A stretch of 32,202 nucleotides of DNA from Candidatus Uhrbacteria bacterium CG10_big_fil_rev_8_21_14_0_10_48_16 (lineage in GTDB: Bacteria; Patescibacteriota; Patescibacteriia; UBA9934; GWF2-40-263). The notes beneath the pieces were generated by a model, which had not been told where the DNA came from, did not search any database, and worked only from the letters and a program-made list of their open reading frames with translations. This document shows, piece after piece, positions 14,372 through 19,924 of this stretch. The stretch lies in assembly GCA_002793515.1 (NCBI GenBank), contig PFEU01000018.1, forward strand, positions 1-32,202, read 5' to 3'. Position 1 is the first letter of the stretch, and the number at the start of each line of letters is the position of its first letter. Position numbers and translations under genes: made by a program.

Positions 14372-15834
14372 GTAGAAAGTTTAGTGATTGCGCGCGTCAT
14401 GCGTTTCAAGGAGTCCTCTTTTCCAAGGGCCCACAAAAGATCAAACGGCCCTGCTGACTGCTTCTGTCCTGATAACGCAACACGCACAGGCCAAAGCACA
14501 TTTCCATTTTGATATTCTCCCTCTTCAATATACTTCTTTACGACCCCTTCGATCAATGCCCTGTCCGCAAAAACATCATCACTGACAGCACTCAGAAGCG
14601 TTGAGAGCGCTTGCATATGAAGGAGTGCGTCCTGTGCATCTGCTTTTTTCCATACGAGCATCTCTGTCTCATATTCCGGAAGGGTAAGATACATCTCGAC
14701 GCGTTCTTCGAGATCCTTCAAGATAGTGAGTCGATCCTTTTCTACTTCTAAAATACGCTGTTTTTGTGCTTCTGGAAGTGACTGTGCGGAGCCAAAGAAC
14801 GGCTTTGCACGCTCAAATAATTCTGCTGGCTCCATGGCACGAATATACTGACCGTTCATCCAGTTTAATTTTTCCGTATCAAAGACGGCTCCGCTTTTGT
14901 TGACGCTGGAAAGCTCGAACGATTCAATTAATTCTGTGATCGAGTAAATTTCACGATCTCCGGAAGGATTGAATCCAAGAAGAGCGACAAAGTTAATCAG
15001 TGTTTCTGGGAGATAGCCTTTTGCCAGAAAATCCTCAACCGCTACATCTCCTTGGCGCTTTGAAAGTTTTGATTTATCTGGGTTCAAGATGAGAGGAAGG
15101 TGTGCGAACGCAGGCATGGGGAATCCAAACGCGTTGTACAGCATGACGTGTTTTGGCACACTCGAAATCCATTCTTCTCCACGAATAATGTGCGTAACCC
15201 CCATCAAGTGATCATCGACTACCACAGCAAGATGATACGTTGGATATCCATCCGCTTTCATCAGGACTTGATCATCGATTTCCGCATTGCTGATCTTTAT
15301 TGATCCTCGAATTTCATCCTTGAAAATCGTTTCCCCGTCTGGAACAAGCAGACGGACCACATGAGACTCCCCTGCCTCAATGCGTTGCGTTATTTCATCC
15401 TGATCAAGTTTTAAGCACGCTCGGTCATATTTCGTAGGAAGCTTTGCGAGTTGTTGTTGTGAACGTAATTCTGTAAGGCGCTCTTTTGAACAAAAACAGT
15501 AGTACGCACTCCCCTGTTCAAGGAGCTTTTGTACGTATGTTTTATAGATGTCCAAACGCAAGGATTGTGTGTAAGGACCGTTCTCTCCCTTCTCAGAAAG
15601 CGCGCCTGCCGTTATCACTGGCCCCTCATCGTATTCGAGTCCGACTTCCGCCAAGGTTTTTATAAGCGATTCCACGGCCCCTTCAACGAGACGTTCGCGG
15701 TCGGTGTCCTCAACACGGACAATAAATTTCCCTCCATGCTTTCTTGCATAAAGGTAGTTATAGAGAGCGGTTCGAAGGGATCCCACATGCAGGAAACCCG
15801 TTGGTGATGGAGGAAAGCGTGTAACAATATTCAT
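14368..15834 (-). CDS. gltX: Glutamyl-tRNA synthetase
   Basis: This class I synthetase charges tRNA-Glu, and in many bacteria also tRNA-Gln for later amidation. It has 488 residues, normal for GltX. The HIGH-type signature is PPSPTGFLHVGSLRTALYN (HVGS) near residues 7-25. The KMSKS-type signature is KLSKRQGD around residue 256. GluRS-typical FIVRVEDTDRERLVEG and LRIIRGEEWISS-like elements are present. Start and stop overlap both neighbours by four bases (ATGA), so translation is coupled through wecG-gltX-M23. Whether it is discriminating or not cannot be read from sequence alone. Confidence 0.96.
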   Translation of the reverse strand: MNIVTRFPPSPTGFLHVGSLRTALYNYLYARKHGGKFIVRVEDTDRERLVEGAVESLIKTLAEVGLEYDEGPVITAGALSEKGENGPYTQSLRLDIYKTYVQKLLEQGSAYYCFCSKERLTELRSQQQLAKLPTKYDRACLKLDQDEITQRIEAGESHVVRLLVPDGETIFKDEIRGSIKISNAEIDDQVLMKADGYPTYHLAVVVDDHLMGVTHIIRGEEWISSVPKHVMLYNAFGFPMPAFAHLPLILNPDKSKLSKRQGDVAVEDFLAKGYLPETLINFVALLGFNPSGDREIYSITELIESFELSSVNKSGAVFDTEKLNWMNGQYIRAMEPAELFERAKPFFGSAQSLPEAQKQRILEVEKDRLTILKDLEERVEMYLTLPEYETEMLVWKKADAQDALLHMQALSTLLSAVSDDVFADRALIEGVVKKYIEEGEYQNGNVLWPVRVALSGQKQSAGPFDLLWALGKEDSLKRMTRAITKLST

Positions 15835-16643
15835 ACCGTGCGAAAATGTCTCAGAATTTCAGAAAAAACTCGAAATGTTGATTTAAGGAATGTTCGTTGC
15901 CTGAGTGTACTCAATGCGACGAGTAACGGGAAGATCAAGACCGCTCGAGCAATGCGACGCCAGCGACCAGGCTCGATCAAAAGTCGCCAAAGCCATTCAA
16001 GACCGACACGTGAATAAACACGTGGGGCACGCTTCTTGCGCCCGGAGATCATTTCAAATGCGCCCCCGACCCCGATCCAAATCTTTACCGAGGGACAGTC
16101 GTTTTTCAGTTGAAAGATGAACTGTTCCTGCTTCACCTGACCCAGACCAACAGCCACGATAGCTGGTTCTTCTTCTTGGATCTGTTCGATGAGGTGATGG
16201 GAGATCGTGAGACGATCATGATTCCATCCAATCATTCCAGGATCCATCCCTGAGATGGAGAGTTCTGGAAATTGCGTTCCAAGAACCTCGGCGGATGCAT
16301 CAGCGGACCCAGGCTCTCCTCCAAAAAGCAGAACGTGTGCCTTTTGTTTCTGTGCGAGTTCGCATACCATAGGAAGGAGATCCACTCCTGGATGACGATG
16401 CTCGAGACGGTTGGGAGTGAGCGCAATAATGGCGTACTGCAAGCTGATCGAATCGGCGACAGAAAGATCGCTTTTGTTCAGCAACGATTTGAACATAGGA
16501 TTCTTTCGGGCCTCAAGAAGAAACTCAGCATTTGGGGTCACGATGACTCGTCCTTGATCCCCTTTTAACCAGGTCTCAAACAACGGTTTAAGTTCATCCA
16601 ATGGCTCATCATCAATTCTTACTCCAAAGAGTTCATGGGTCAT
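15831..16643 (-). CDS. WecG/TagA/CpsF-family glycosyltransferase
   Basis: A 270-residue GT26-family enzyme. Members transfer N-acetylmannosamine(-uronate) to a lipid-linked sugar in teichoic acid or enterobacterial common antigen synthesis. Family features: VIVTPNAEFLLEARKNP, LSVADSISLQYA (position of the catalytic Asp), AHVLLFGGEPGSA, IVAVGLGQVKQEQFI and IGVGGAFEMISGRKKRAP followed by GLEWLWRLLIEPGRW. The C-terminal basic, hydrophobic tail would place it at the inner membrane face. It leads its operon behind an extended -10 promoter. The exact sugar is unknown, so no gene symbol is given. Confidence 0.92.
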   Translation of the reverse strand: MTHELFGVRIDDEPLDELKPLFETWLKGDQGRVIVTPNAEFLLEARKNPMFKSLLNKSDLSVADSISLQYAIIALTPNRLEHRHPGVDLLPMVCELAQKQKAHVLLFGGEPGSADASAEVLGTQFPELSISGMDPGMIGWNHDRLTISHHLIEQIQEEEPAIVAVGLGQVKQEQFIFQLKNDCPSVKIWIGVGGAFEMISGRKKRAPRVYSRVGLEWLWRLLIEPGRWRRIARAVLIFPLLVALSTLRQRTFLKSTFRVFSEILRHFRTV

Positions 16644-16672: not shown

Positions 16673-16698
16673 GCAAATAATTGGACTTTTCCACATTG

Positions 16699-16808
16699 AT
16701 CCCGCTGGTGGTCTAACATTCTGATGGGTCAATAGATGTGCAGAGCCGTAGGCGCCTAACGGCTTTCAATTTAGTAAACAGACGAACGTTTTTGACCACC
16801 AGCGGGAT
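16699..16808. repeat. 110-bp nested palindrome, MITE-like
   Basis: Outer arms ATCCCGCTGGTGGTC (16699-16713) and GACCACCAGCGGGAT (16794-16808) are perfect 15-base inverted repeats. A second inverted repeat, AGCCGT...ACGGCT around AGGCGCCT (16744-16764), is centred at the same point near 16754. The intermediate arms keep partial complementarity (AACATTCTGATG against AACGTTCGTCTG, 8 of 12). The element nearly fills the gap between the divergent glycosyltransferase and clpB genes. Its right end touches the clpB -35 box. No clear target-site duplication or encoded protein is visible. Confidence 0.75.
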
Positions 16809-16836
16809 TGACAGCTTTATTTTAGCACTCTACACT
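16808..16836 (+). promoter_or_regulatory. clpB promoter
   Basis: TTGACA at 16808-16813, a 17-base spacer and TACACT at 16831-16836. The -10 box lies in the loop of the CIRCE operator, so HrcA binding would block RNA polymerase directly. The last base of the palindrome's right arm is the first T of the -35. Confidence 0.8.
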
Positions 16837-16848
16837 AGAGAGTGCTAA
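16822..16848. promoter_or_regulatory. CIRCE element (HrcA operator)
   Basis: TTAGCACTC, nine bases, then GAGTGCTAA: a perfect match to the CIRCE consensus bound by the heat-shock repressor HrcA. It overlaps the -10 and start of transcription, 12 bases before the ATG of clpB. hrcA itself is not in this window. Confidence 0.95.
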
Positions 16849-19540: not shown

Positions 19541-19570
19541 AAAAAAATCACCATTCACGGTGATTTTTTT
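19541..19570. terminator. Strong bidirectional terminator after clpB
   Basis: A perfect 12-bp stem (seven A, then ATCACC-type arm, against GGTGA and seven T) with the loop ATTCAC. T-runs exist on both strands, so it can end clpB transcripts and those of the opposing GIY-YIG gene, whose stop codon lies in the loop. Confidence 0.9.
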
Positions 19571-19848
19571 GTTGCATATTTTGGCCACTTATTATAACCA
19601 ATTACAGGATTATTTGATTGATATTGTTTAATAAATTCAACCTCTTTTTTATTGACATCCTGGTCAATGGCATTTGGTGATTGCCAAAGTATTTCTCGTC
19701 TAATCGTAAAATCGTTTTTCTCTGCCTCGGAAAAATCTGATTCAAGTAGCTTGCTGTCAGGACTACCAAAATACCTAAAGGTACCAGTAAGATCTTTACC
19801 GATATAGATTTTTCCGTTTGGATAAGTGATTTTATAAATCCATTTCAT
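19555..19848 (-). CDS. Small GIY-YIG nuclease-like protein
   Basis: A 97-residue single-domain protein of the GIY-YIG endonuclease superfamily. WIYKITYPNGKIYIGKD carries the signature with Trp in place of the first Gly (WIY...YIG). The domain continues with FTIRREILW (conserved Arg) and KKEVEFIKQYQ (candidate catalytic Glu), ending IGYNKWPKY. Proteins of this size and ending are common as stray genes in bacteria and phages; their cellular target is not known. I chose the ATG at 19848 over a TTG five codons upstream since the homologous-looking start MKWIYKIT begins there. Its first 27 bases are duplicated near 21982. Confidence 0.8.
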   Translation of the reverse strand: MKWIYKITYPNGKIYIGKDLTGTFRYFGSPDSKLLESDFSEAEKNDFTIRREILWQSPNAIDQDVNKKEVEFIKQYQSNNPVIGYNKWPKYATKKSP

Positions 19849-19851
19849 GTT
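19825..19851. repeat. 27-bp direct repeat, copy A
   Basis: It covers the start of the GIY-YIG gene (codons for MKWIYKIT). It is identical over 27 bases to 21982-22008, with five further matching bases after one mismatch. Confidence 0.85.
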
Positions 19852-19924
19852 ATAAAAAATCAAATTTGCGATGTCGCGATAGCGGAGTGCATGAGAGTAC
19901 AGCGTGGGGACGTATATTTTTCTC

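Follow-up and report, generated by a model that had tools for sequence, protein, structure and literature searches.

The window, the whole 32,202-nucleotide stretch of DNA analyzed here (contig PFEU01000018.1 of Candidatus Uhrbacteria bacterium CG10_big_fil_rev_8_21_14_0_10_48_16), contains a 108-bp palindrome that, judging from sequence comparison, is very probably a mobile, MITE-like insertion in the −35 box of the clpB promoter. The case is well documented: a mobile hairpin would have entered a promoter and restored it through the target duplication that it made, which in a compact genome is a means of insertion that does no harm.

The outer arms of the palindrome (16699–16716 and 16791–16808) are 18 nt long and 94% complementary, with 15 perfect pairs, and the inner palindrome, GAGCCG-T-AGGCGCCT-AA-CGGCTT, has about the same center. 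A preliminary description of this DNA had claimed a perfect 15-bp outer repeat and an inner palindrome sharing one center, and both are indeed present and roughly concentric. This is the sole perfect inverted repeat of at least 15 bp with a spacing of up to 140 in the window, and none of 60 dinucleotide shuffles of the window contained a perfect inverted repeat of at least 15 bp. Fold prediction of both strands, which had been proposed as a check, found both to be much more stable than shuffles as RNA (z −6.3 and −6.4); as DNA, the plus strand gave z −4.7. The right arm was also said to end at the first base of the clpB −35 box, which is exact: position 16808 is the first T of TTGACA (16808–16813). 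The outermost A/T pair (16699/16808) belongs to a 4-bp target duplication, and the element proper spans the 108 bp between the two duplicated copies (Table 1). It is overlapped by no ORF of at least 100 aa.

Table 1. Features in and around the palindrome upstream of clpB (window positions)
Feature	Position	Strand	Basis
WecG/TagA/CpsF-family glycosyltransferase, divergent from clpB	15831..16643	-	Pfam PF03808
Left target-site duplication, TTGA	16696..16699	.	Single TTGA at the same spot in the G004 empty site
Very probable mobile hairpin (MITE-like), 108 bp	16700..16807	.	Empty-site comparison; copies in own genome (C29, C10) and relatives
Left terminal inverted repeat, TCCCGCTGGTGGTC	16700..16713	+	Compensatory changes between copies
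Conserved central hairpin, GAGCCG-TAGGCGCCTAA-CGGCTT	16743..16765	+	Alignment and pair counts, 10 copies
Right terminal inverted repeat, GACCACCAGCGGGA on the + strand	16794..16807	-	
Right target-site duplication, TTGA, first four bases of the clpB −35 box	16808..16811	.	
clpB sigma-70-type promoter, TTGACA-17-TACACT	16808..16836	+	Same −35 and −10 in orthologues
CIRCE operator, TTAGCACTC-N9-GAGTGCTAA, perfect, overlapping the −10 box	16822..16848	.	Kept in three same-genus orthologues
clpB, 888 aa	16861..19527	+	NCBIfam TIGR03346 above cut-off

An empty site is found in a genome of the same genus, G004, where the clpB promoter reads CACATTGACAG against CACATTGA-(108 bp)-TTGACAG in the window. 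Over a longer stretch the G004 orthologue reads ...TTTTTTTTCACATTGACAGTTCCATTTTAGCACTC... and the window ...TTTTCCACATTGA-(108 bp)-TTGACAGCTTTATTTTAGCACTC..., with one copy of TTGA in G004 and two in the window, flanking the element. The clpB promoter of G005 is also empty (CACAGGTTGACAA). Since the −35 box begins with TTGA, duplication of these bases on insertion would have regenerated the box. A non-autonomous element with 14–15-bp terminal inverted repeats would have entered the TTGA with which the −35 box of clpB, a gene under CIRCE control, begins, and the four duplicated bases would have rebuilt the unit of −35, −10 (TACACT, 16831–16836, after a 17-bp spacer) and CIRCE at the right edge of the element. 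Only AT-rich DNA upstream of the −35 box would have been displaced, as judged from the empty site. The suggestion in the preliminary description that insertion may have shaped the promoter is supported, with one correction: upstream sequence was replaced and the first four bases of the −35 box were duplicated, but the promoter was not created, the −35 box having pre-existed. The effect on clpB is probably modest, with an upstream A/T tract lost and the core promoter and heat-shock operator unchanged. CIRCE is the site of the HrcA heat-shock repressor, and the clpB promoter here is an ordinary CIRCE promoter that differs from other CIRCE/HrcA heat-shock promoters in that its −35 box coincides with the exact end of the putative mobile element.

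A further orthologue, that of G002, has an unrelated stretch of ~90 bp at the position of the element. This insert (locus L040) occupies the same interval as the window hairpin and carries palindromes of its own (GGGGCTAAAGCCCC); the clpB promoter may be a repeated landing site.

The hairpin recurs at unrelated loci, with three copies in the genome of the window and seven more spread over four relatives of the same family. Besides the clpB copy, the own genome holds two diverged copies, C29:20253–20373 (73%) and C10:19350–19456 (75%), the latter with an orthologue in G004 in similar flanks; the others are in G004 (two), G002 (one), G040 (three) and G049 (one). The own-genome copies differ by 25–27%, a divergence that makes the insertions old, and this genome shows no recent jump. 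Exact 4-bp duplications, all fitting TNNA (TTGA/TCAA or TGGA/TCCA), flank nine of the ten copies. The tenth, in G049, lies inside a duplicated 5′ fragment of a tRNA gene, for which a nearby intact copy provides a paralogous empty site. The earlier characterization as a MITE or cruciform-forming element is supported by these copies and by the clean empty site with its 4-bp duplication. Both the additional copies and the empty sites that it had proposed looking for exist, and the outcome it had named as favoring a fixed structure, an absence of copies together with palindromes conserved at orthologous sites, was not observed: neither the G004 nor the G005 clpB orthologue carries the element.

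Across the ten copies the 15 arm pairs are about 98.6–98.7% paired, a score that none of 500 shuffles and no slid version equals. In six of the pairs both partners have changed, and 20 cells are changed on both sides. Within positions 16744–16765, 15 of 22 are invariant and four more nearly so, giving the conserved core AGCCG-N-AGGCGCCT-NN-CGGCTT between two poorly conserved spacers. From the covariation we infer that arms and core are kept by selection. Because transposon ends must match both the enzyme and each other, such covariation is compatible with end–enzyme coevolution and with hairpin folding alike. A G-U bias in the arms was considered as evidence for RNA and set aside; it is suggestive in the close family but shows opposite asymmetries in the wider one.

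That wider family was delimited with a covariance model built from the ten close-family copies, with nine candidates scored per genome. Matches at E ≤ 0.001 occur in at least 18 of 381 class genomes and at least 12 genera. The elements are 107–113 bp long, plus one 54-bp form, with ends that include CCCCGTTAGAAGTT, CCCCGCCCCTATCC and CCCCCACACYAAT and a related core, AAGGCGAAGCCGCCT..CGGCT. Exact 4-bp duplications flank 17 of all 31 hairpins found with the model and are missing or imperfect in about 45%. On 373 kb of unrelated bacterial and viral DNA the model returned one full-length match (E 0.6) and core-sized fragments, the latter from loci fetched for matching the core. The arm CCCCGTTAGARRTTC is found in 24 of the 381 genomes; among the matches listed, most have a partner arm within 300 bp, and exact 4-bp duplications accompany 13 of 24 distinct paired matches. 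Hairpins with identical arms have varied interiors. As a control for the mostly paired class genomes, viral contigs gave 28 matches to the arm CCCCGTTAGAARTTC, none with a partner arm; no core pattern was found in the viral contigs, and blastn searches of phage and plasmid collections returned nothing. GTDB-wide, the core pattern has convincing matches only in two CPR bins, Ca. Uhrbacteria bin.153 and Parcubacteria group bin.251; those of the remaining matches that were viewed lack arms.

These hairpins share much with bacterial MITEs such as MITEAba12 (PMC6382973): they are short, non-coding and intergenic, have inverted-repeat ends and target duplications, occur in several copies, and can sit at promoters. 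They differ in their 4-bp TNNA target with an apparent −35-box preference, in the strongly conserved central hairpin between drifting spacers, in being without a known parent transposase, and in being found, in this analysis, only in CPR/Patescibacteria genomes. The RUP, Correia and ERIC elements are further bacterial MITEs.

Several loci show unusual arrangements of the hairpins. At L120 (G166:C14:6977) two CCCCGTTAGAAAT arms exactly enclose a tRNA gene, with no target duplication. At L085/L096 (G185:C2:302469) a hairpin abuts the end of another type of element, GGTGCGGGG-TTGA-CCCCGTCAGAAG, an arrangement suggestive of one insertion nested in, or in tandem with, another where TTGA is duplicated. 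In G205, a 2.4-kb hairpin pair was considered as a composite transposon and rejected, as the pair merely flanks gyrB (named from sequence).

The −35 box seems, on statistical grounds, to be a preferred target of the hairpins. All nine of the TTGA-duplication insertions examined read TTGAC (control rate 16.5%), and six of the nine have a −10-like hexamer (at least a 4/6 match) exactly 17 bp downstream (joint-event control 6%; binomial about 3e-6), figures that are indicative, the set having been picked after the pattern was noticed and two of its members (both in G152) sharing ~12 bp of flank. Another subset of hairpins targets TATG/CATA, that is, start codons, and at L139 the ATG of the downstream gene is restored. 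The CCCCGTTAGAAGTTC hairpins at such sites (L139, L122 and L143) include, close to one end, a hairpin resembling a terminator (e.g., GACGAAAAAAATATTAATTTTTTTCGTC), and L139 has a TATAAT close to its opposite end, as if these elements stopped upstream transcription and then restarted it.

At locus L128 (G349) a GIY-YIG ORF lies complete within an arm pair, and with this ORF as query 18 hairpin-bearing or related genomes gave ~100 GIY-YIG matches. Inverted repeats of at least 12 bp lying within 45 bp of both ORF ends bracket 14 of 30 GIY-YIG genes in the loci, compared with 7 of 296 control ORFs (Fisher 9e-12) and 8 of 948 random intervals. Inverted 13-bp ends (up to two mismatches) together with an exact 4-bp duplication flank 12 of 91 GIY-YIG genes, of which two (L192 and L228) look fortuitous, compared with 1 of 368 control intervals. 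The clear elements are about 277–327 bp long, and their sole gene encodes a GIY-YIG nuclease of ~90 aa. The duplication is TATG in G104, G152 (two), G205 and G004 (two); elsewhere it is TGAG (G124), TGAA (G382), TAAA (G205) or CGCG (G152). One G004 element, TATG-CCCAGTAGTAC...GTACTACTGGG-TATG, interrupts the start of a gene that is element-free in five genomes of the same genus, the window's own included, where the sequence upstream (AGGAGGATTTTATATG) aligns and the start codon occurs once. In G004 the nuclease is fused in frame to the host start codon, and the host gene starts anew at the second TATG copy. As expected of autonomous transposons, the GIY-YIG elements are thus discrete, with inverted ends, a target duplication and an empty site.

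The GIY-YIG proteins have 18 invariant residues, including two tyrosines of the GIY-YIG motif region, Arg34 and Glu58. A predicted model (pLDDT 88.6) is closest to UPF0213 (1zg2) and Slx1, with a best fold-search E of 1.4e-3, and sequence matches are to 1zg2 (E 8e-11) and an SLX1 homolog (E 6e-4). The proteins therefore resemble these structure-specific nucleases in sequence and in predicted fold and differ from them in being single GIY-YIG domains. Slx1 cuts branched DNA, an activity that would suit hairpin or cruciform ends; neither UPF0213 nor Slx1 is known as a transposition enzyme.

Some hairpins and GIY-YIG elements have ends in common. In G152 the hairpin L139 and the GIY-YIG elements L204 and L223 have a common end, CCCCGTTAGAAG, and a common TATG target, and the end CCCCCACACCAAT is common to a G247 hairpin and a G152 GIY-YIG element. 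Two window-family hairpins directly abut GIY-YIG start codons (G040:C8 and G049:C8), the genes being of a second, tRNA-adjacent type described below. None of the GIY-YIG elements found carries the window's arm sequence, YCCCGCTGGTGGTC, the shared ends occurring only in other subfamilies, and the only GIY-YIG match in the window's own genome adjoins a tRNA gene and is without bracketing repeats. For the window hairpin the link passes by way of the wider family, whose covariance-model E is about 1e-8 per genome. Our best, though tentative, candidate for the mover of the hairpins is a small Slx1/UPF0213-like GIY-YIG nuclease, which would act in trans on the hairpin ends. By extension, these elements might represent a CPR class of the smallest known autonomous transposons, a proposal put forward with less than even confidence. 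Such elements, of ~280–330 bp and with a ~90-aa GIY-YIG nuclease as their only gene, would drive swarms of non-coding hairpins, that of clpB included, by a chemistry other than DDE, HUH, tyrosine, serine or Cas1. Hairpin-forming ends would be recognized and 4-bp duplications made, with landing preferentially at TATG start codons and TTGAC −35 boxes and the motif restored by the duplication. If the GIY-YIG link is true, a new enzyme class is added to transposition, with single-gene elements small enough to synthesize.

The link, if true, could also explain unclassified inserts in CPR rRNA genes. Some of these carry GIY-YIG genes, match no intron and seem to stand outside spread by homing, and others are uncharacterized, ORF-less inserts, mostly <200 bp and without explanation (PMC11270868). 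The elements described here share with those inserts and with GIY-YIG homing endonucleases a small mobile GIY-YIG ORF in the same bacteria (PMC11270868), and are distinguished by terminal inverted repeats, 4-bp target duplications and a non-coding hairpin form. In the open literature searched, neither a GIY-YIG transposon nor CPR MITEs were found described, an absence that is weak evidence because that library is incomplete.

It is also quite possible that the hairpin is a MITE of an ordinary, unseen DDE insertion sequence and that the GIY-YIG gene in similar elements is a passenger. Inverted-repeat ends with fixed-length target duplications are the classic DDE signature, the genomes are incomplete, and varied interiors between identical arms would fit; yet no transposase lies between such ends among the one-type arm matches listed from the 381 genomes, and the coding elements seen are always GIY-YIG. 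The survey of transposase families covered IS1380 (PF13701) only, chosen for its short duplications and CC.. ends. It was rejected as the parent, being absent from the hairpin-bearing genomes and carrying other ends at its own loci.

The other alternatives concern the nature of the clpB palindrome itself. A structured RNA gene or leader element would account for the RNA fold (z −6.3), the covarying arms and the conserved core, but is very unlikely: the element lies upstream of both the clpB promoter and the likely promoter of the divergent gene, so neither transcript should contain it, no Rfam covariance model matches the window at the gathering threshold, and target duplications are present. 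A fixed regulatory palindrome or cruciform controlling clpB deserves very little credence despite the strong fold, the adjoining −35 box and the arms conserved between copies, as it is missing at two of three orthologous clpB promoters, with other sequence in the third, and has copies at unrelated loci; the empty site already contradicts it. An element like REPIN/RAYT or integron attC, moved by a single-strand (HUH or tyrosine) recombinase, would be similar in size, hairpin form and intergenic location, but is highly improbable given the clean 4-bp target duplications, which such mechanisms are not known to make.

The small GIY-YIG genes of these genomes include further forms. Three GIY-YIG elements in different genera (L190, L192 and L193) have unequal flanks, TTCA/TAAA, with no duplication, and are perhaps a subfamily with a different boundary. 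In the window, a 102-aa ORF right after clpB (19555–19863, minus strand) has a GIY-YIG-like start, WIYKITYPNGKIYIGKD, and no Pfam or NCBIfam match. The second small GIY-YIG type adjoins tRNA genes (L202, G000:C21:27054–27284; L197; L211; L115:4025; L241). Here the 5′ part of the tRNA (about 15–25 bp) is duplicated on the far side of the GIY-YIG gene, as if that gene had inserted in the tRNA gene with a long duplication.
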